From positions 2,078,001 to 2,142,000 of the forward strand of contig NZ_CP069128.1 in the NCBI RefSeq assembly GCF_029637485.1: a DNA stretch of 64,000 bases, in the 5' to 3' direction. The notes beneath the pieces were generated by a model that saw nothing but the letters and a program-made list of their open reading frames with translations, did not search any database and was not told the origin of the DNA. The stretch comes from Sphingomonas sp. LHG3406-1. GTDB taxonomy: Bacteria > Pseudomonadota > Alphaproteobacteria > Sphingomonadales > Sphingomonadaceae. This document shows, one piece after another, positions 57,353 through 64,000 of this stretch (position 1 is the stretch's first letter; each line of letters starts with the position of its first letter). Both the position numbers and the translations under genes were made by a program.

Positions 57353-57880
57353 ATGAATGCGCCGACCAAGCTGAGTATCGTCGATCAGATCCGCGCCCGT
57401 GACGGGGACCATTGCTGGCTCTGCAACGGCACGCTCGACTTTGCGGCGAAGCCGAACAGCAAGAGGGCACCGACCAAGGAGCATCTGGTGGCGCAGTCGC
57501 TCGGCGGCGGGAACGAGCTGTCGAACCTCGTCCTTTGCCACCCCGGCTGTAACAGGATGCTGGCCGACCGCCCGGTCGCGGACAAGGAGAAGATCCGCGC
57601 CAAGTTGGCGGCCAATCGGGCGAAGGTGGCGGCAGCGAAGAAGGCGGGCGTGCCGGTGCCGTCGAATTCCCCGGCGTCAGTTAAGGCGACGGAGAAGGCG
57701 GGTGCGCTCTCGCCGCCGATTGCTCCGGCACCCTTGCAGAGGAACGCGGCAACCAGGGCTGGTCCGCCGGCCCTTCGCCTTGAGGCGCAGCTCTGGCGCT
57801 GGCAAATGATCAGCTTGGTGAGCGCCGGGGCGGCGATGCTGGCGATCGGTGTTCTGATCGGGCTGGCCTTGGCCGCGTGA
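57353..57880 (+). CDS. HNH endonuclease with C-terminal membrane helix
   Basis: A 175-residue protein. The HNH core (about residues 8-75) has the zinc pair CWLC, the catalytic EHLVAQSLGGGNELSNLVL and CHPGCNRML. A Lys/Ala/Pro-rich linker leads to one hydrophobic helix (about residues 150-174, ISLVSAGAAMLAIGVLIGLA). A membrane-tethered HNH nuclease is unusual. It begins a run of small accessory genes up to 59950. Confidence 0.82.
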   Translation: MNAPTKLSIVDQIRARDGDHCWLCNGTLDFAAKPNSKRAPTKEHLVAQSLGGGNELSNLVLCHPGCNRMLADRPVADKEKIRAKLAANRAKVAAAKKAGVPVPSNSPASVKATEKAGALSPPIAPAPLQRNAATRAGPPALRLEAQLWRWQMISLVSAGAAMLAIGVLIGLALAA

Positions 57881-58090
57881 GGATCAAGGGACCTGCCAGA
57901 AGCCCAACATGAATTGGCGCAGGATCGCCTTTTGTACGACTTTGAATTGGATACCGCTGTCCTACTGCTAACCAAATAGGCTAAATCGATGCGAGGCGCG
58001 ACTCATCAAGAGGATCGTAGCCTTGTTGAGGTGGGCTTCATGCGTCATTGTCGGTGCTGCTCGGTTTTCGCGTTTGGAGGGCGTCCTTCC

Positions 58091-58522
58091 GTGTTGAACC
58101 TCACTGAGCGCCAGCAGCAATGCTTGGAGGGTTATCTGGCCCGGAAGACCGCGAAGGAGATCGGGCGTGAGCTCGGGATCTCGCATCATGCGGTCGAGCA
58201 GCATCTGAAAGCGACCCGGCGCAAGTTGAACGTGACCGACACTGCCTCAGCGGCCCGGCTCTACCTCCATGCAGGCACTACGGTGGAGCCATACTATGAT
58301 CCCCCGGAGCTACACGAACCTGGCACCGCCGAGGTAGCCGATCAATATCCGGAGCGTCAGATTGCCGACCTTCGGGATGTAACGTCGGAAGCCATGGGGA
58401 GAGCATATTCGCTGTCGGCTGGACAGGTCCTTGCGGCCATCGGCCTGTGCGGCGTTGCTCTGATCGTCGCCATGACGCTGCTTTTGGCAATCGCACAAGG
58501 CATTGACCAGATCACAGCCTGA
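58091..58522 (+). CDS. LuxR-type HTH protein with C-terminal membrane helix
   Basis: A 143-residue protein. The N-terminal domain NLTERQQQCLEGYLARKTAK, then EIGRELGISHHAVEQHLKAT is a LuxR/GerE helix-turn-helix. A hydrophobic helix (about residues 110-132, VLAAIGLCGVALIVAMTLLLA) ends the protein. GTG 58091 was chosen because GGAGGG lies 9 bases before it; ATG 57989 would add an unconserved Cys-rich leader. A membrane-tethered LuxR HTH without a sensor domain is unusual. It is separated from the HNH gene by 210 bases of lower GC. Confidence 0.8.
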   Translation: MLNLTERQQQCLEGYLARKTAKEIGRELGISHHAVEQHLKATRRKLNVTDTASAARLYLHAGTTVEPYYDPPELHEPGTAEVADQYPERQIADLRDVTSEAMGRAYSLSAGQVLAAIGLCGVALIVAMTLLLAIAQGIDQITA

Positions 58523-59387: not shown

Positions 59388-59950
59388 ACGAGGTCGGCCT
59401 CGCCAGAGCAACCCGGTCATCGGAGCAAATCCGGGCCGCGTTCGGAAGTCTGGCGGCAGCGCTGGATGCCGAGCCTCTGGCGCTGAAGGCGGTAGTGGGA
59501 GCAAAGGCTGCGCGCATGCTCAAGGCAGCGCAAAAGCTCCACGTCGATCTATTGGCAGAGGCCCTAGTCGAGCGTCCGCTCCTCTCCAGCCAAGGGGAAG
59601 TGGCGGCGTTCCTGGCGCGTTGCATCGGCTTTCGCCCGATCGAGGTGCTGATCGTGCTGCACGTGGATGGCCGCCGTCGGATCATCTGTCATGACGTGCT
59701 CGCCGAAGGACGCGTCGATGCCGTGCCCATCGATTGCCGCCGCATCATCTTGCGGGCGCTGGAGCGGGGTTCAAGGGGATTGGTGCTGGCGCACAATCAT
59801 CCGTCGGGCGACGGTCGGCCGAGCGCAGCGGACCTGCGTGCCACGCGGCAGGTTGCTGACTGCGCGAGGATTTTCGAAATCGTGCTGCACGATCACCTGA
59901 TCGTGACCGGCACGGACATTACGAGCTTGCGGGCGCTGAATTACGTCTAA
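59294..59950 (+). CDS. RadC-type JAB/JAMM domain protein
   Basis: Protein with an N-terminal helix-hairpin-helix-like region (LETFLNEVGLARAT, AVVGAKAARMLKAAQKL) and a C-terminal JAMM domain whose metal motif is LAHNHPSGDGRPSAADLRAT (HxHPSGx7-8D). RadC was once thought a repair protein; JAMM members are metal hydrolases, often found in mobile or accessory islands. The start is uncertain: GTG 59294 has no ribosome binding site and overlaps the membrane gene by 94 bases; CTG 59372 gives the conserved LETFL start but has no site either. The domain assignment is secure; the 5' end is not. Confidence 0.75.
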   Translation: MADGGAVARRYGRLPSAPDRRCTSTGLETFLNEVGLARATRSSEQIRAAFGSLAAALDAEPLALKAVVGAKAARMLKAAQKLHVDLLAEALVERPLLSSQGEVAAFLARCIGFRPIEVLIVLHVDGRRRIICHDVLAEGRVDAVPIDCRRIILRALERGSRGLVLAHNHPSGDGRPSAADLRATRQVADCARIFEIVLHDHLIVTGTDITSLRALNYV

Positions 59951-60027
59951 GGAGCGACTAGCCCGGTGCTACAGATCGCAGGCTCCTTGATCCTCGCCTT
60001 CGCCAGGTCTCACCCGCATGGCCAATT

Positions 60028-60055
60028 GGGACCGCTCCGGAGGAGGAGCGGTCCC
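60028..60055. terminator. hairpin terminator between RadC-type and nrdB genes
   Basis: GGGACCGCTCC (60028-60038) pairs with GGAGCGGTCCC (60045-60055), 11 base pairs, loop GGAGGA, in the gap between the convergent genes. There is no T-run on either side. Confidence 0.6.
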
Positions 60056-60089
60056 TTGGCGCTATGTTCGACCTTTCAGGTCCTACAGG

Positions 60090-61142
60090 TCACTCCGCCG
60101 CCACCCCGGCAGCATCGAACAACCCACCTTCGGCCTCGGCCTCCGGCGCGTCGTTCGCGACCTTGGCCTTCTGGCGGCGGTCGAAATTGTCCCACACCTC
60201 GTTCCAGTTCCCCTTGGTCGCTGCCTTCGAATATTCCGTCGCGCGGGTTTCGAAGAAGTTGGCGTGCTCGACGCCGTTGAGGAGCGGGGCGAGCCAGGGG
60301 AGGGGGTGTTCGTCGACCATGTAGATGGGCTGGAAGCCAAGCTGGCCCAAGCGCCAGTCGGCGATGTAGCGGATGTACTTCTTGATCGACTTGGGCGTCA
60401 TGCCCTCGACCGGGCCCTGTTCGAAGGCGAGGTCGATGAAGGCGTCCTCGAGGCGGACGGTCTTCTGGCACTGATCGATGATCGAATCCTTGACCTCGGC
60501 GGTGAGGCAGTCGCGCTCCTTCACGAAGGCGTGGAAGAGCTTGATGATGCCCTCGCAGTGGAGGCTTTCGTCGCGGACCGACCAGCTGACGATCTGGCCC
60601 ATGCCCTTCATCTTGTTGAAGCGCGGGAAGTTCATCAGCATGGCGAAGCTGGCGAACAGCTGCAGCCCCTCGGTGAAGGCGCCGAACATGGCCAGCGTCT
60701 TGGCGATGTCGGCATCGGTGTCGACGCCGAAGGTGTTCAGATAGTCGTGCTTGTCCTTCATCTCCTTGTACTGGAGGAAGGCGCTATATTCGCTCTCGGG
60801 CATGCCGATGGTGTCGAGCAGGTGCGAGTAAGCGGCGATGTGCACCGTCTCCATGTTGGAGAAGGCGGTCAGCATCATCTTGATCTCGGTCGGCTTGAAC
60901 ACCGAGCCGTACTTGTCGTGGTAGCAATCCTGCACCTCGACGTCGGCCTGGGTGAAGAAGCGGAAGATCTGGGTGAGGAGGTTGCGCTCGTGCGGGGTGA
61001 GCTTCTGCGCCCAGTCGCGGCAATCCTCGCCCAAAGGCACTTCCTCCGGCATCCAGTGGATCTGCTGCTGGCGCTTCCAGAATTCGAACGCCCAGGGATA
61101 TTCGAAGGGCTTGTAGGCCTTGTTGGCTTGGAGGAGGGGCAT
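60090..61142 (-). CDS. nrdB: ribonucleoside-diphosphate reductase subunit beta (class Ia)
   Basis: Holds the di-iron tyrosyl radical cofactor. The 350 residues have ligands Asp67, Glu98 and His101 (ETVHIAAY), then Glu in FTEGLQLFASF and VRDESLHCEG (Glu, His), and the radical Tyr105 at the spacing of E. coli Tyr122. This identifies the classical class Ia type. A 5-base gap separates its ATG from the upstream 39-residue gene; the micro-genes between nrdA and nrdB are probably co-transcribed. Confidence 0.95.
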   Translation of the reverse strand: MPLLQANKAYKPFEYPWAFEFWKRQQQIHWMPEEVPLGEDCRDWAQKLTPHERNLLTQIFRFFTQADVEVQDCYHDKYGSVFKPTEIKMMLTAFSNMETVHIAAYSHLLDTIGMPESEYSAFLQYKEMKDKHDYLNTFGVDTDADIAKTLAMFGAFTEGLQLFASFAMLMNFPRFNKMKGMGQIVSWSVRDESLHCEGIIKLFHAFVKERDCLTAEVKDSIIDQCQKTVRLEDAFIDLAFEQGPVEGMTPKSIKKYIRYIADWRLGQLGFQPIYMVDEHPLPWLAPLLNGVEHANFFETRATEYSKAATKGNWNEVWDNFDRRQKAKVANDAPEAEAEGGLFDAAGVAAE

Positions 61143-61146
61143 GGGG

Positions 61147-61266
61147 CTAGTCCTTGGGGCTGGTGTCGGTGGAAGCGGCGGCGGCGTCGCGGGGGCGGCG
61201 CTTGGGGACGGGGATGGCGACGGCCGCGGTCGGGGCCGATAGGGCGAGGATGAGTTCCGGTTTCAT
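61147..61266 (-). CDS. 39-residue micro-protein between nrdA and nrdB
   Basis: Reads MKPELILALSAPTAAVAIPV then KRRPRDAAAASTDTSPKD. A hydrophobic N-terminus (too short for a secure membrane helix) is followed by a basic patch and polar tail. AGGAGA lies about 9 bases upstream of the ATG on the minus strand, supporting translation. It ends 4 bases before the nrdB start. No family is recognised; overlapping mRNA with nrdA and nrdB is inferred from strand and spacing. Confidence 0.55.
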   Translation of the reverse strand: MKPELILALSAPTAAVAIPVPKRRPRDAAAASTDTSPKD

Positions 61267-61297
61267 GCGGCGCGTCTCCTGCGGATGGATGGCGTGA

Positions 61298-61516
61298 TCA
61301 TGGGCTCGCCCCGTTGCTGAAGTCGTAGGGTTCGGTCGTCGCATAGGCGATGGCGAAGCCGCCCAGGACCAGGCCGAAGGCGAGCAGCATCATGCCGCCG
61401 ATGAGCTGGGCGGTGGACTTGCGGCTCTCCCCCGGGCGCCCCCGCAAGGCGGCGATGAGGGTGAGGAGGCCGAAGAGGGCGCTGAGGCCGCCGAGGATGA
61501 CGAAGAGCAGGTTCAT
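61298..61516 (-). CDS. 72-residue two-helix membrane protein in the nrd operon
   Basis: A small membrane protein with two helices (LLFVILGGLSALFGLLTLIA and LIGGMMLLAFGLVLGGFAIA) joined by a basic loop RGRPGESRKST, ending TTEPYDFSNGASP. It is inside the nrdA-nrdB gap on the same strand. The nearest Shine-Dalgarno sequence (GGAGG) is about 15 bases from the ATG, so initiation may depend on coupling to the 32-residue gene. No named family is recognised. Confidence 0.75.
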   Translation of the reverse strand: MNLLFVILGGLSALFGLLTLIAALRGRPGESRKSTAQLIGGMMLLAFGLVLGGFAIAYATTEPYDFSNGASP

Positions 61517-61522
61517 GGGGGA

Positions 61523-61621
61523 TCAACGCACGCCTCCGCCCTTCTTCGCCACGAAGGCGCCGACGACGACGATCACCGCGAAGGAGGGCGGCGGGGCGAG
61601 GACGGGGCTGGCGAAGCTCAT
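61523..61621 (-). CDS. 32-residue membrane micro-protein in the nrd operon
   Basis: Reads MSFASPVLAPPPSFAVIVVV followed by GAFVAKKGGGVR: a short hydrophobic helix and a basic end, typical of a single-pass micro-protein. Its ATG overlaps the stop of the upstream 27-residue gene by 4 bases (ATGA). GGAAGG is about 7 bases upstream. Its stop is 6 bases before the 72-residue gene's start. It is too short to show homology by eye. Confidence 0.6.
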   Translation of the reverse strand: MSFASPVLAPPPSFAVIVVVGAFVAKKGGGVR

Positions 61622-61701
61622 CGCCCGCCCTTCCGCTGAAGCGAGCGCAGCGCCCAGAAGATCACCAGGACGGCGATGACGATGACGGCAATCTTCAGCA
61701 T
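61618..61701 (-). CDS. 27-residue membrane micro-protein in the nrd operon
   Basis: Reads MLKIAVIVIAVLVIFWALRS then LQRKGGR: one hydrophobic helix with a basic C-terminal end. A strong ribosome binding site (AAGGAGG, about 9 bases before the ATG on the minus strand) shows this very short gene is translated. It overlaps the 32-residue gene by 4 bases. It lies just after two GC-rich hairpins that follow nrdA. Confidence 0.65.
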   Translation of the reverse strand: MLKIAVIVIAVLVIFWALRSLQRKGGR

Positions 61702-61722
61702 GGCGTCAATCCTCCTTCCGGT

Positions 61723-61793
61723 GGCGGCGGCAGGGCCGCGAGCCCTGCCGCCGCCGGCTCCTCGCGCCCGCCCCTCCCGCGCGGCGGGAGGGG
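61723..61793 (-). promoter_or_regulatory. two tandem GC hairpins between nrdA and its downstream micro-genes
   Basis: First on the transcript: CCCCTCCCGC/GCGGGAGGGG (61771-61780 with 61784-61793, loop of three). Next: a perfect 14-base-pair stem GGCGGCGGCAGGGC/GCCCTGCCGCCGCC (61723-61736 with 61742-61755, loop CGCGA). Neither has a T-run, so they may cause partial termination, mRNA processing or protection and set the ratio of nrdA to nrdB. Confidence 0.6.
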
Positions 61794-61803
61794 GCTCAGC
61801 GGA

Positions 61804-63702
61804 TCACTGGCAGGCCAGGCACTCGTCATAGTCGGTGCTGGCGGCGAGCTCGTACTTGGGCGCTTCGGCGGTGTTGTCGGCCTCCACCCCGCCGGCGAAG
61901 CCCGCGCGCTGCACGGACTTGGAGCGGAGATAGTAGAGCGACTTGATGCCGAGCTCCCAGGCGCGGAAGTGGAGCATCATCAGGTCCCACTTGTCGACGT
62001 CGGCCGGGATGAACAGGTTCAGCGAGGTGGCCTGGTCGATGTAGGGCGTGCGGTCGGCGGCGAGCTCGATCAGCCAGCGCTGGTCGATCTCGAAGCTGGT
62101 CTTGAAGGTCGCCTTCTCATCCTCGGAGAGGAAGTCGAGGTGGGCGACGCTGCCACCCTGCTCGAGAATCGAATTCCACACCGCGTCGGAGTTCTTCGAC
62201 TTCTCGGTGAGGAGCTTCTCCAGGTACGGATTGCGGATCGAGAAGCTGCCGGACAACGTCTTGTGGGTATAGACGTTGGCCGGGATCGGTTCGATGCAGG
62301 CCGAGGTGCCGCCGCAGATGATCGAGATGGACGCGGTCGGCGCGATCGCCATCTTGCAGGAAAAGCGCTCCATCACGCCCATGTCGGCGGCGTCCGGGCA
62401 CGGCCCGCGCTCGACTGCCAGCTGGAGCGAGGCTTCGTCGACCTGCGCCTTGATGTGCTTGAAGATCTTGAGGTTCCAGCTTTTGGCCATGGCGCCTTCG
62501 AACGGCAGGCCGCGGGCCTGGAGGAAGGAGTGGAAGCCCATCACGCCGAGACCGACCGAGCGCTCGCGCTCCGCGCTGTACTTGGCCCGCGCCATCTCGT
62601 CCGGCGCGCGGTCGATATAGTCGGTGAGGACATTGTCGAGGAAGCGCATGACGTCCTCGATGAACGACTTGTCGCCGTTCCACTGGTCCCAGGTTTCGAG
62701 GTTGAGGGACGACAGGCAGCAGACCGCGGTGCGGTCGGCGCCGAGATGGTCCTTGCCGGTCGGCAGGGTGATCTCGGAGCAGAGGTTCGAGGTCGACACC
62801 TTGAGGCCGAGATCGCGGTGATGCTTGGGCATCGACCGGTTCACCTGGTCGATGAAGATGATGTAGGGCTCGCCGGTCGCAAGGCGGGTCTCGACCAGCT
62901 TCTGGAACAGCGAGCGGGCGTCGACCGTGCCGCGCGGGCTCTGGTCGCGGGGGCTGCGGAGCGTGAACTCGGCGCCGTCGCGCACCGCTTCCATGAACTC
63001 GTCGGTGACCAGCACGCCATGGTGCAGGTTCAGCGCCTTGCGGTTGAAGTCGCCCGAGGGCTTCCGGATCTCGAGGAACTCCTCGATTTCGGGGTGCGAG
63101 ATGTCGAGGTAGCAGGCGGCCGAGCCGCGGCGGAGCGAGCCCTGGCTGATGGCGAGGGTCAGCGAGTCCATCACCCGCACGAAGGGGATGATGCCGCTGG
63201 TCTTGCCGTTGAGGCCGACCGGCTCACCGATGCCGCGGACATTGCCCCAATAGGTGCCGATGCCGCCGCCCTTGGACGCGAGCCAGACATTCTCGTTCCA
63301 GGTATTGACGATGCCGTCGAGGCTGTCGCTGACCGAGTTCAGATAGCAGCTGATCGGCAGGCCGCGACCGGTGCCGCCATTGGACAGGACCGGGGTCGCC
63401 GGCATGAACCACAGCTTGGAGATATAGTCGTAGACGCGCTGGGCATGCGCCTCGTCGTCGGCATAGGCGGCGGCGACGCGGGCGAACAGGTCCTGGTAGC
63501 TTTCGCCGGGCAGGAGGTAGCGGTCGTTCAGCGTCTCCTTGCCGAAGTCGGTGAGGAGCGCGTCGCGGCTCGAATCGGTGGTCACCGAGAAGCGCCGGGC
63601 GTCGACCGTCTTGCTGTCCTTCTTCGCCGACTCCTCCTTAGAGGCCTGGGGCGGGGTGGTGACGTCGGCGCTGCCGACCTCGCTGCCGCTCGAGAAGTCC
63701 AT
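61804..63702 (-). CDS. nrdA: ribonucleoside-diphosphate reductase subunit alpha
   Basis: The catalytic subunit that reduces ribonucleotides. The 632 residues contain the radical-site motif NLCSE (Asn306, Cys308, Glu310), redox Cys119 and Cys328/329 region, and the C-terminal swinging pair CLAC (Cys628, Cys631). There is no N-terminal ATP cone, the domain that shuts off the enzyme with dATP in E. coli. ATG 63702 was chosen because AGGAGG lies about 8 bases upstream; ATG 63708 is too close to it. It starts the nrd operon. Confidence 0.94.
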   Translation of the reverse strand: MDFSSGSEVGSADVTTPPQASKEESAKKDSKTVDARRFSVTTDSSRDALLTDFGKETLNDRYLLPGESYQDLFARVAAAYADDEAHAQRVYDYISKLWFMPATPVLSNGGTGRGLPISCYLNSVSDSLDGIVNTWNENVWLASKGGGIGTYWGNVRGIGEPVGLNGKTSGIIPFVRVMDSLTLAISQGSLRRGSAACYLDISHPEIEEFLEIRKPSGDFNRKALNLHHGVLVTDEFMEAVRDGAEFTLRSPRDQSPRGTVDARSLFQKLVETRLATGEPYIIFIDQVNRSMPKHHRDLGLKVSTSNLCSEITLPTGKDHLGADRTAVCCLSSLNLETWDQWNGDKSFIEDVMRFLDNVLTDYIDRAPDEMARAKYSAERERSVGLGVMGFHSFLQARGLPFEGAMAKSWNLKIFKHIKAQVDEASLQLAVERGPCPDAADMGVMERFSCKMAIAPTASISIICGGTSACIEPIPANVYTHKTLSGSFSIRNPYLEKLLTEKSKNSDAVWNSILEQGGSVAHLDFLSEDEKATFKTSFEIDQRWLIELAADRTPYIDQATSLNLFIPADVDKWDLMMLHFRAWELGIKSLYYLRSKSVQRAGFAGGVEADNTAEAPKYELAASTDYDECLACQ

Positions 63703-63824
63703 GGTCATTTCCTCCTGGCGGCCGATTGCGCCGCTCCTTGTTCCCGATCCGTTCACGGTGCCGGGATACGCCCGACGGCCGTGATTCGCTAGGGCCTCGA
63801 GAGGTTGGAGAGGGTTCATCCCCG

Positions 63825-63833
63825 CTATCCACA
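63825..63833 (+). promoter_or_regulatory. DnaA-box-like sequence in the nrdA leader
   Basis: CTATCCACA at 63825-63833 differs from the DnaA consensus TTATCCACA at one base. With the second site TTATCCCCA (63865-63873, one mismatch, between the promoter hexamers), it makes a pair that fits DnaA control of nrdA seen in E. coli. Chance matches are possible. Confidence 0.45.
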
Positions 63834-63857
63834 GGGACGCGTCTCTCCCTCGCCAGA

Positions 63858-63886
63858 GATATAGTTATCCCCAGCGCCAACCACAA
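63858..63886 (-). promoter_or_regulatory. candidate sigma-70 promoter of nrdA
   Basis: On the minus strand TTGTGG (63881-63886) and TATATC (63858-63863) are separated by 17 bases, about 155 bases before ATG 63702. This gives an untranslated leader of about 150 bases. The DnaA-like TTATCCCCA lies between the hexamers, and the first NrdR-like box overlaps the -35. Confidence 0.55.
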
Positions 63887-63927
63887 GTTTGTGCGTTGGT
63901 CCCCCGATGCCGCTACAACATCTTGTG
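63882..63927 (-). promoter_or_regulatory. pair of candidate NrdR boxes upstream of nrdA
   Basis: CACAAGTTTGTG (63882-63893, arms CACAA/TTGTG) and the related CAACATCTTGTG (63916-63927, ACAA..TTGT core) are about 33 bases apart centre to centre, the spacing usual for tandem NrdR boxes. The first overlaps the candidate -35, where repression would act. Match to the NrdR consensus is partial, so this is a candidate. Confidence 0.45.
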
Positions 63928-64000
63928 CTTTGACCCGCGATTCAGCGCAAGCGGGAAAATGCCGGGGAAAGCGAAAATGCGGTGGATTGTGTGGCAACGG

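Follow-up and report, generated by a model that had tools for sequence, protein, structure and literature searches.

The window analysed here, 64,000 nucleotides of the genome of Sphingomonas sp. LHG3406-1 (a single contig of 2.85 Mb), carries the genes for both subunits of ribonucleotide reductase (RNR) on the minus strand, separated by a gap of 661 bp (Table 1). As expected for a class I RNR operon, nrdA and nrdB are neighbours on one strand and their products match the respective family models. The ATP-cone model of Pfam matched neither NrdA nor NrdB, and the enzyme may operate without the usual overall-activity switch. Downstream of nrdB, on the other strand, lie genes for an HNH nuclease-like protein, with matches just under the cut-offs, and a RadC-type JAB protein (57353-57880 and 59408-59950). 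A further gene (57989-58522) encodes a LuxR-type (GerE) DNA-binding domain and, by eye, a hydrophobic C-terminal stretch, and is perhaps that of a membrane-tethered regulator.

Table 1. Coordinates of the features of the nrdA-nrdB locus in the window.
Feature	Coordinates	Strand	Description and basis
Tandem NrdR-box-like sites	63913-63928 and 63881-63896	-	Starts spaced by 32 bp; upstream of nrdA
nrdA	61804..63702	-	RNR large subunit, 632 aa; Pfam Ribonuc_red_lgN and Ribonuc_red_lgC; NCBIfam NF006577, 1042.6 bits
GC-rich hairpin after nrdA stop	61772..61792	-	No T run; folding
Hairpin between nrdA and micro-ORF 1	61723..61755	-	15-bp stem; folding
Shine-Dalgarno AAGGAGG of micro-ORF 1	61711..61717	-	9 nt 5' of ATG; sequence
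Micro-ORF 1	61618..61701	-	27 aa, one predicted membrane segment, basic tail; ORF list, hydropathy
Micro-ORF 2	61523..61621	-	32 aa, one predicted membrane segment; ORF list, hydropathy
Micro-ORF 3	61298..61516	-	72 aa, predicted two-helix membrane hairpin, conserved family; homologues, dN/dS, model
AGGAG 5' of micro-ORF 4	61276..61280	-	Spacing as for micro-ORF 1; sequence
Micro-ORF 4	61147..61266	-	39 aa; inner start of a 65-aa frame (61147..61344)
nrdB	60090..61142	-	RNR small subunit, 350 aa; Pfam Ribonuc_red_sm, 251.7 bits; NCBIfam NF007186, 584.7 bits

The first-pass annotation, made from the sequence alone, described a string of four short genes (27, 32, 72 and 39 aa) in this gap on the nrd strand, and all four frames are present in the ORF list. 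The upper coordinate given for the string, 61793, also takes in the hairpin 3' of the nrdA stop codon. Strong ribosome-binding sites had been noted for the first and last frames, and AAGGAGG and AGGAG were found at these places; the arrangement AAGGAGG-N4-10-ATG occurs at eight sites in the 464 kb sampled from this genome, the window included, and two of the eight open long coding-like ORFs. The ATGA overlap reported between the first two frames lies at 61618-61621. The stop codon of the second frame is followed after 6 nt by the third, which ends 31 nt before the start of the fourth, and the fourth stops 4 nt before nrdB, its tail holding the nrdB Shine-Dalgarno sequence AAGGA (61151-61155). 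With starts picked by simple rules and a hydropathy cut-off of 1.7 over 19 residues, the four frames are predicted to contain 1, 1, 2 and 0 membrane segments, respectively, in agreement with the earlier prediction of three membrane proteins. None of the four gave a match above cut-off in Pfam or NCBIfam.

The 108-nt stretch 3' of nrdA, which includes the two GC-rich hairpins, has a minimum free energy of -70.1 kcal/mol (z -3.5). A search of Rfam over 59900-64000 gave a single match, below the gathering score and within nrdB. Between 60000 and 64000, a consensus scan covering the sigma-70-like type of promoter found none, and terminator-like sites were absent from the nrd strand, with one on the other strand. 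The region upstream of nrdA was scored against the NrdR-box consensus. The window's tandem sites score 21, the highest score among 200 mononucleotide shuffles being 19; the score expresses likeness to the box and not binding. Of 28 relatives, 25 score at least 20 upstream of nrdA (26 at least 19). A spacer of 15-16 bp is described for NrdR boxes (PMC12051234), with which the 16-bp spacer of the window agrees. As the boxes precede nrdA and the best NrdR-like score in the window's own gap is 15, transcription of nrdB and the micro-genes most likely starts at the promoter of nrdA.

Among the four frames, that of 72 aa is clearly a conserved protein under purifying selection, as judged by dN/dS values of 0.16-0.55 in all ten comparisons of the window with relatives; third codon positions were those changed most in each of the ten pairs. 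A phmmer search retained 120 of 127 candidates, 51-97 aa long, as homologues at E ≤ 0.001, and 119 of these had no Pfam domain listed. Named sources of the relatives are species of Sphingomonas, among them S. humi, S. rosea, S. arenae and S. swuensis. A 72-aa protein with 90% identity (P0001) is encoded on a metagenome contig of 34 kb. Some relatives bear the source labels 'DUF4190' or 'HdeD (DUF308 family)', which look like automatic annotation. Short hydrophobic repeats are common to Pfam DUF308 and the 72-aa family, and of 20 family members compared with DUF308, 7 reach E ≤ 0.1, the best at 3.1e-5; for membership of the window protein in DUF308/HdeD, no Pfam or NCBIfam match reached the cut-off. 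AlphaFold predicts a two-helix hairpin, with a mean pLDDT of 84.8 for the best model and 63.9-80.4 for the other four. Between the helices lies the basic stretch RGRPGESRKS and, given the positive-inside rule, by which basic stretches are oriented toward the cytoplasm, this loop should face the cytoplasm. The loop is retained as RGR-GESRKS in close relatives and is not conserved in distant members of the family, and G41 and G48 of helix 2 are invariant. A Foldseek search of the model against the PDB returned 65 matches when E values of up to 10 were allowed but none that reached 0.001, and is uninformative because a two-helix hairpin is too generic.

The nrdA-nrdB gap was measured in 45 of the 61 genus genomes searched. 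An nrdB match was found in 55, and for the ten of these without a gap value contigs were cut through or beside one gene, loci were unretrieved or nrdA was not found in the stretch examined (e.g. G004 and G022); the surveyed genomes are related and the counts are not independent. The gap ranges from 48 to 3860 bp, and two members with complete nrdA and nrdB have gaps of 48 and 51 bp, with no room for a micro-gene. A first profile of the 72-aa family matched in 32 of the 45 gaps. A wider iterated profile, which also captures related two-helix proteins of ~67 aa that are often in the same gap, matched in 36, and none of the 64 matched frames was on the opposite strand. A profile scan of genome contigs gave 14 loci, every one of them in an nrdA-nrdB gap. 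Whole-genome searches of 26 genomes, selected so as to cover both carriers and non-carriers of the family, gave 13 strong matches, each in the gap and each the only one in its genome; 12 genomes had no match to the profile, and G016 had a weak one within a 708-aa frame. Plain vertical inheritance would also give this one-place pattern.

Outside the genus, the wider profile matched in 7 of 68 drawn genomes with linked nrdA and nrdB, and in all three genomes (G235, G247 and G272) that were added to the family survey because of an earlier match to the 72-aa profile. Applied to whole genomes, the first profile matched in 5 of 149 from a draw of the family and in 6 of 98 from a draw of the order, the window's genome being among both. 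The 72-aa matches in six extra-genus genomes are weak, and all six are located beside nrdB, with nrdA also within the 3.2 kb examined in four. The gap in the 71 linked genomes of other genera is 60-3720 bp. For 19 of the 90 other-genera genomes (87 drawn and 3 added; e.g. G135 and G146), no nrdA was detected in the 4 kb upstream of nrdB; the gene is either unlinked there or split off by a larger insertion. Of ten genomes from other families of the order, nine have a gap of 42-110 bp and one has a gap of 1824 bp.

Conservation of the remaining frames is uneven. Position-matched MLKI/MVKI/MIKI peptides correspond to the 27-aa frame in three genomes (G017, G011 and G059), with dN/dS of 0.16-0.32 among themselves; the window copy is far diverged from them (0.49-1.56). 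For the 32-aa frame, position-matched peptides of 30-32 aa are found in four genomes (G011, G059, G031 and G028), with dN/dS of 0.12 between the two closest copies and 0.43-0.87 in the other pairs, as compared with 0.83-1.51 against the window copy, whose homology is suggested by position and a weak sequence pattern. Both window copies are too diverged for proof of homology. In G011, the order of the ORFs and the 4-nt overlap are as in the window, with one extra ORF before the 72-aa gene, and the window's 27- and 32-aa frames have a GC3 of 0.88-0.94 and a GC2 of 0.38-0.55. Tails similar to the 39-aa frame occur in G031 and G028, with dN/dS of 0.95-1.37 in four comparisons with the window and 0.68-1.66 among the relatives only, and part of the similarity is accounted for by the nrdB Shine-Dalgarno sequence. 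With dN/dS at about 1, these comparisons show no selection at the protein level and give no support for the 39-aa frame as a conserved protein. Hence, the conservation in relatives for which the first-pass annotation had called was found, unmistakably for the 72-aa gene and as position-matched relatives for the 27- and 32-aa frames, and the 39-aa frame falls outside it. On these comparisons the 72-aa gene is secure, the 27- and 32-aa genes are probable and the 39-aa gene is doubtful. An origin of the frames as fragments of one broken gene was rejected, as the pieces represent separate families that are found apart and in differing sets.

Small membrane ORFs, defined as ORFs of 23-150 aa with a membrane segment, were then counted in all gaps of at least 150 bp (43 in the genus and 62 in other genera). 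One or more on the nrd strand are present in each of the 43 genus gaps. Over the 51 kb of these gaps, 116 such ORFs are on the nrd strand versus 8 on the opposite strand and a mean of 2.8 in 20 dinucleotide shuffles, and the corresponding numbers for ORFs with at least two segments are 74, 0 and 0. In other genera, 39 of the 62 gaps contain small membrane ORFs (78 ORFs versus 5 on the opposite strand and 9.0 in shuffles). A control drawn from the window's genome with crude gene calls, comprising 67 same-strand gaps of at least 150 bp (59.7 kb of 464 kb), contained 22 such ORFs, three of which are those of the window nrd gap itself; at least two same-strand small membrane ORFs occurred in 4 of the 67 gaps, the window nrd gap (with three) among them. 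Under a slightly wider ORF definition, the median number of membrane ORFs per genus gap is 3, and the median fraction of the gap that they cover is 66%. The families found include the 72-aa family, a 67-aa two-helix, a 49-aa one-helix and a 118-aa family and a 125-aa PepSY_TM protein, and the sets of micro-genes vary between close relatives. One genus member also encodes a second NrdB, 68% identical (G052:C1:1381053-1382021).

The spacing of these ORFs points to translational coupling. Among 95 successive ORF pairs in the 43 genus gaps, a count made without a shuffle control, 36 share exactly 4 nt, another 17 have a longer overlap and 28 are separated by more than 20 nt. The stop-start overlap expected of a coupled operon is also seen at one of the window's junctions, that between its first two frames. 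An ORF of 25 aa or longer ends at -6 to +4 of the nrdB start in 31 of the 43 genus gaps, as compared with 1-4 gaps for each of five neighbouring 11-nt intervals, and 25 of these 31 nrdB-abutting ORFs include a membrane segment. The one in the window ends at -4 and has no such segment. The same abutment had been expected in other genera and was not borne out, the count there being at background level (11 of 62, versus 7-14 in the neighbouring intervals).

Other genes occupy the gap as well. The most widespread gene cluster across the family encodes a DUF2171 protein on the opposite strand and was found by clustering in the gaps of 34 genomes, 28 of them in other genera (e.g. L111 and G110), and by tblastn in 36 linked gaps; the one member scanned matches Pfam PF09939. 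With one member scanned from each, a DUF559 cluster is present in 7 genomes and a PepSY_TM cluster in 17, and a protein of ~750 aa, the scanned member of which gave no domain match, is present in 3. The opposite-strand DUF2171 gene lies in 6 of the 45 genus gaps, so the simple operon is broken there. NrdR-like boxes at nrdB were expected in gaps broken in this way, and the expectation was mostly unsupported, with such boxes in 2 of the 6 genus gaps and in 1 of 30 from other genera. Within 300 bp before nrdB, 2 of the 45 genus members (G059 and G011) score at least 20, a value reached by 3 of 357 shuffles. The boxes in these two (L054 and L053, respectively) are about 226 nt upstream of nrdB, and both genomes also have boxes before nrdA and the opposite-strand DUF2171 gene in the gap.

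The reading that we favour, with a probability of about 0.6, is that the gap holds a translationally coupled chain of membrane micro-genes inside an NrdR-controlled nrdAB operon and that re-initiation at the end of the chain feeds nrdB. A single promoter under NrdR control, located upstream of nrdA, would drive nrdAB together with these genes for small inner-membrane proteins, and the 4-nt stop-start overlaps would pass ribosomes along the chain, with re-initiation at nrdB. The chain would thereby keep the long gap translated and set the amount of NrdB relative to NrdA. Its single-helix members would turn over fast, the 72-aa member staying as a two-helix hairpin, and the last frame of the window would probably serve as an nrdB leader instead of a conserved protein. 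According to the first-pass annotation, the micro-genes may have a part in localising, tuning or assembling the enzyme at the membrane, and for tuning the stop-start coupling and the ORF end abutting nrdB offer indirect evidence. Membrane proteins pull the mRNA that encodes them to the membrane while they are being made, and for this reason the nrd message would probably be translated partly there. In E. coli, mRNAs that are polycistronic with genes for inner-membrane proteins are described as membrane-enriched (PMC4874777).

In a stronger form of this last point, which we think unlikely, the purpose of the membrane segments would be to carry the nrdA-nrdB polysome to the inner membrane, where NrdB would be made beside NrdA. 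Single-helix members could then turn over because their sequence matters little, and hydrophobicity, overlaps and nrdB abutment would persist despite the turnover. A soluble essential enzyme would in that case have membrane-localised synthesis.

Whether the gap contents have anything to do with nucleotide reduction is a separate matter. At only a little under even odds, the gap may be a tolerated insertion site in Sphingomonadaceae for genes unrelated to it. The range of gap lengths within and outside the genus, the 19 genomes in which nrdA was not detected near nrdB, the unrelated contents (DUF2171, DUF559, the ~750-aa protein and PepSY_TM) and the differing micro-gene sets of close relatives are all consistent with this. 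It is also compatible with the coupling described above, and in the genus same-strand coupled genes would be those that survive, because others would cut off nrdB. However, a permissive site alone leaves the largely membrane nature of the same-strand small genes of the genus unexplained. A dedicated RNR partner is another proposal: the basic cytoplasmic loop of the 72-aa protein would bind NrdA or NrdB and keep the enzyme at the membrane, close to where iron or electrons are supplied or to the replication machinery. Strong members of the family are found only in the nrdA-nrdB gap, the loop is kept in close relatives along with the two invariant glycines, and a PepSY_TM-type protein is often a neighbour (17 genomes). 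As no ATP-cone was matched in NrdA or NrdB, some other control would be useful. Nevertheless, no family member was matched in 9 of the 45 genus gaps or in 61 of the 68 linked genomes drawn from other genera, where nrdAB are retained all the same, the loop is not conserved in distant members, synteny in one place is no proof of a functional link and we know of no RNR that is a membrane protein. We hold such a partner to be very unlikely. The 48- and 51-bp gaps without the hairpin protein and the unrelated gap genes favour a permissive site over a dedicated subunit and, together with the short gaps elsewhere, argue against any obligatory role of the micro-genes in the reductase.

A more sceptical account takes only the 72-aa gene as real and the 27-, 32- and 39-aa frames as chance ORFs in a GC-rich spacer. 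The dN/dS of the 39-aa frame, the difficulty of aligning the window's 27- and 32-aa copies clearly with their relatives and the lack of Pfam or NCBIfam matches above cut-off for the three frames are in its favour. The AAGGAGG before the 27-aa frame, the codon-position bias in GC content of the 27- and 32-aa frames, the repetition of order and 4-nt overlap in G011 and the low values among the relatives' own copies (up to 0.32 and 0.87, respectively) all count against it, and we regard it as rather unlikely. The coupled chain remains the preferred reading.

Known accessory genes of RNR operons, nrdH, nrdI, yfaE and nrdR, are small and co-transcribed with the RNR subunits, and encode soluble redox, flavo-, ferredoxin or repressor proteins; the genes in the window gap are likewise small, but none of the known products is a membrane hairpin. 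CydX, KdpF and AcrZ are membrane proteins of fewer than 100 aa, several of them encoded in or near the operon that they serve. They are alike in size and membrane nature, but their partners are membrane complexes, whereas NrdAB is soluble. The nearest parallel is the mobE of T4-type phages, a free-standing HNH homing endonuclease gene between phage nrdA and nrdB, which is described as expressed from promoters upstream of nrdA; coupling is suggested by a start-stop overlap between nrdA and mobE, and nrdB of T4 is served by a middle promoter that lies after mobE (PMC2988022). As described there, mobE resembles the present case in being settled in the nrdA-nrdB gap with a start-stop overlap, and differs in encoding an endonuclease and not membrane micro-proteins. 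Neither the four window ORFs nor the 65-aa form matched an HNH or GIY-YIG nuclease. The de novo emergence of membrane peptides is an established theme (PMC7005711). Membrane genes in nrd operons were not found among the best matches in the open-licence literature.

RNR is an essential enzyme that has been studied intensively, and its operons are generally considered well understood. With the chain described here one could ask directly whether the synthesis of a soluble essential enzyme is governed, in dose or in place, by the translation of membrane peptides. In addition, the gaps of 48 to 3860 bp with their many gene sets would provide a natural series in which to follow the origin and spread of small membrane genes within an operon.
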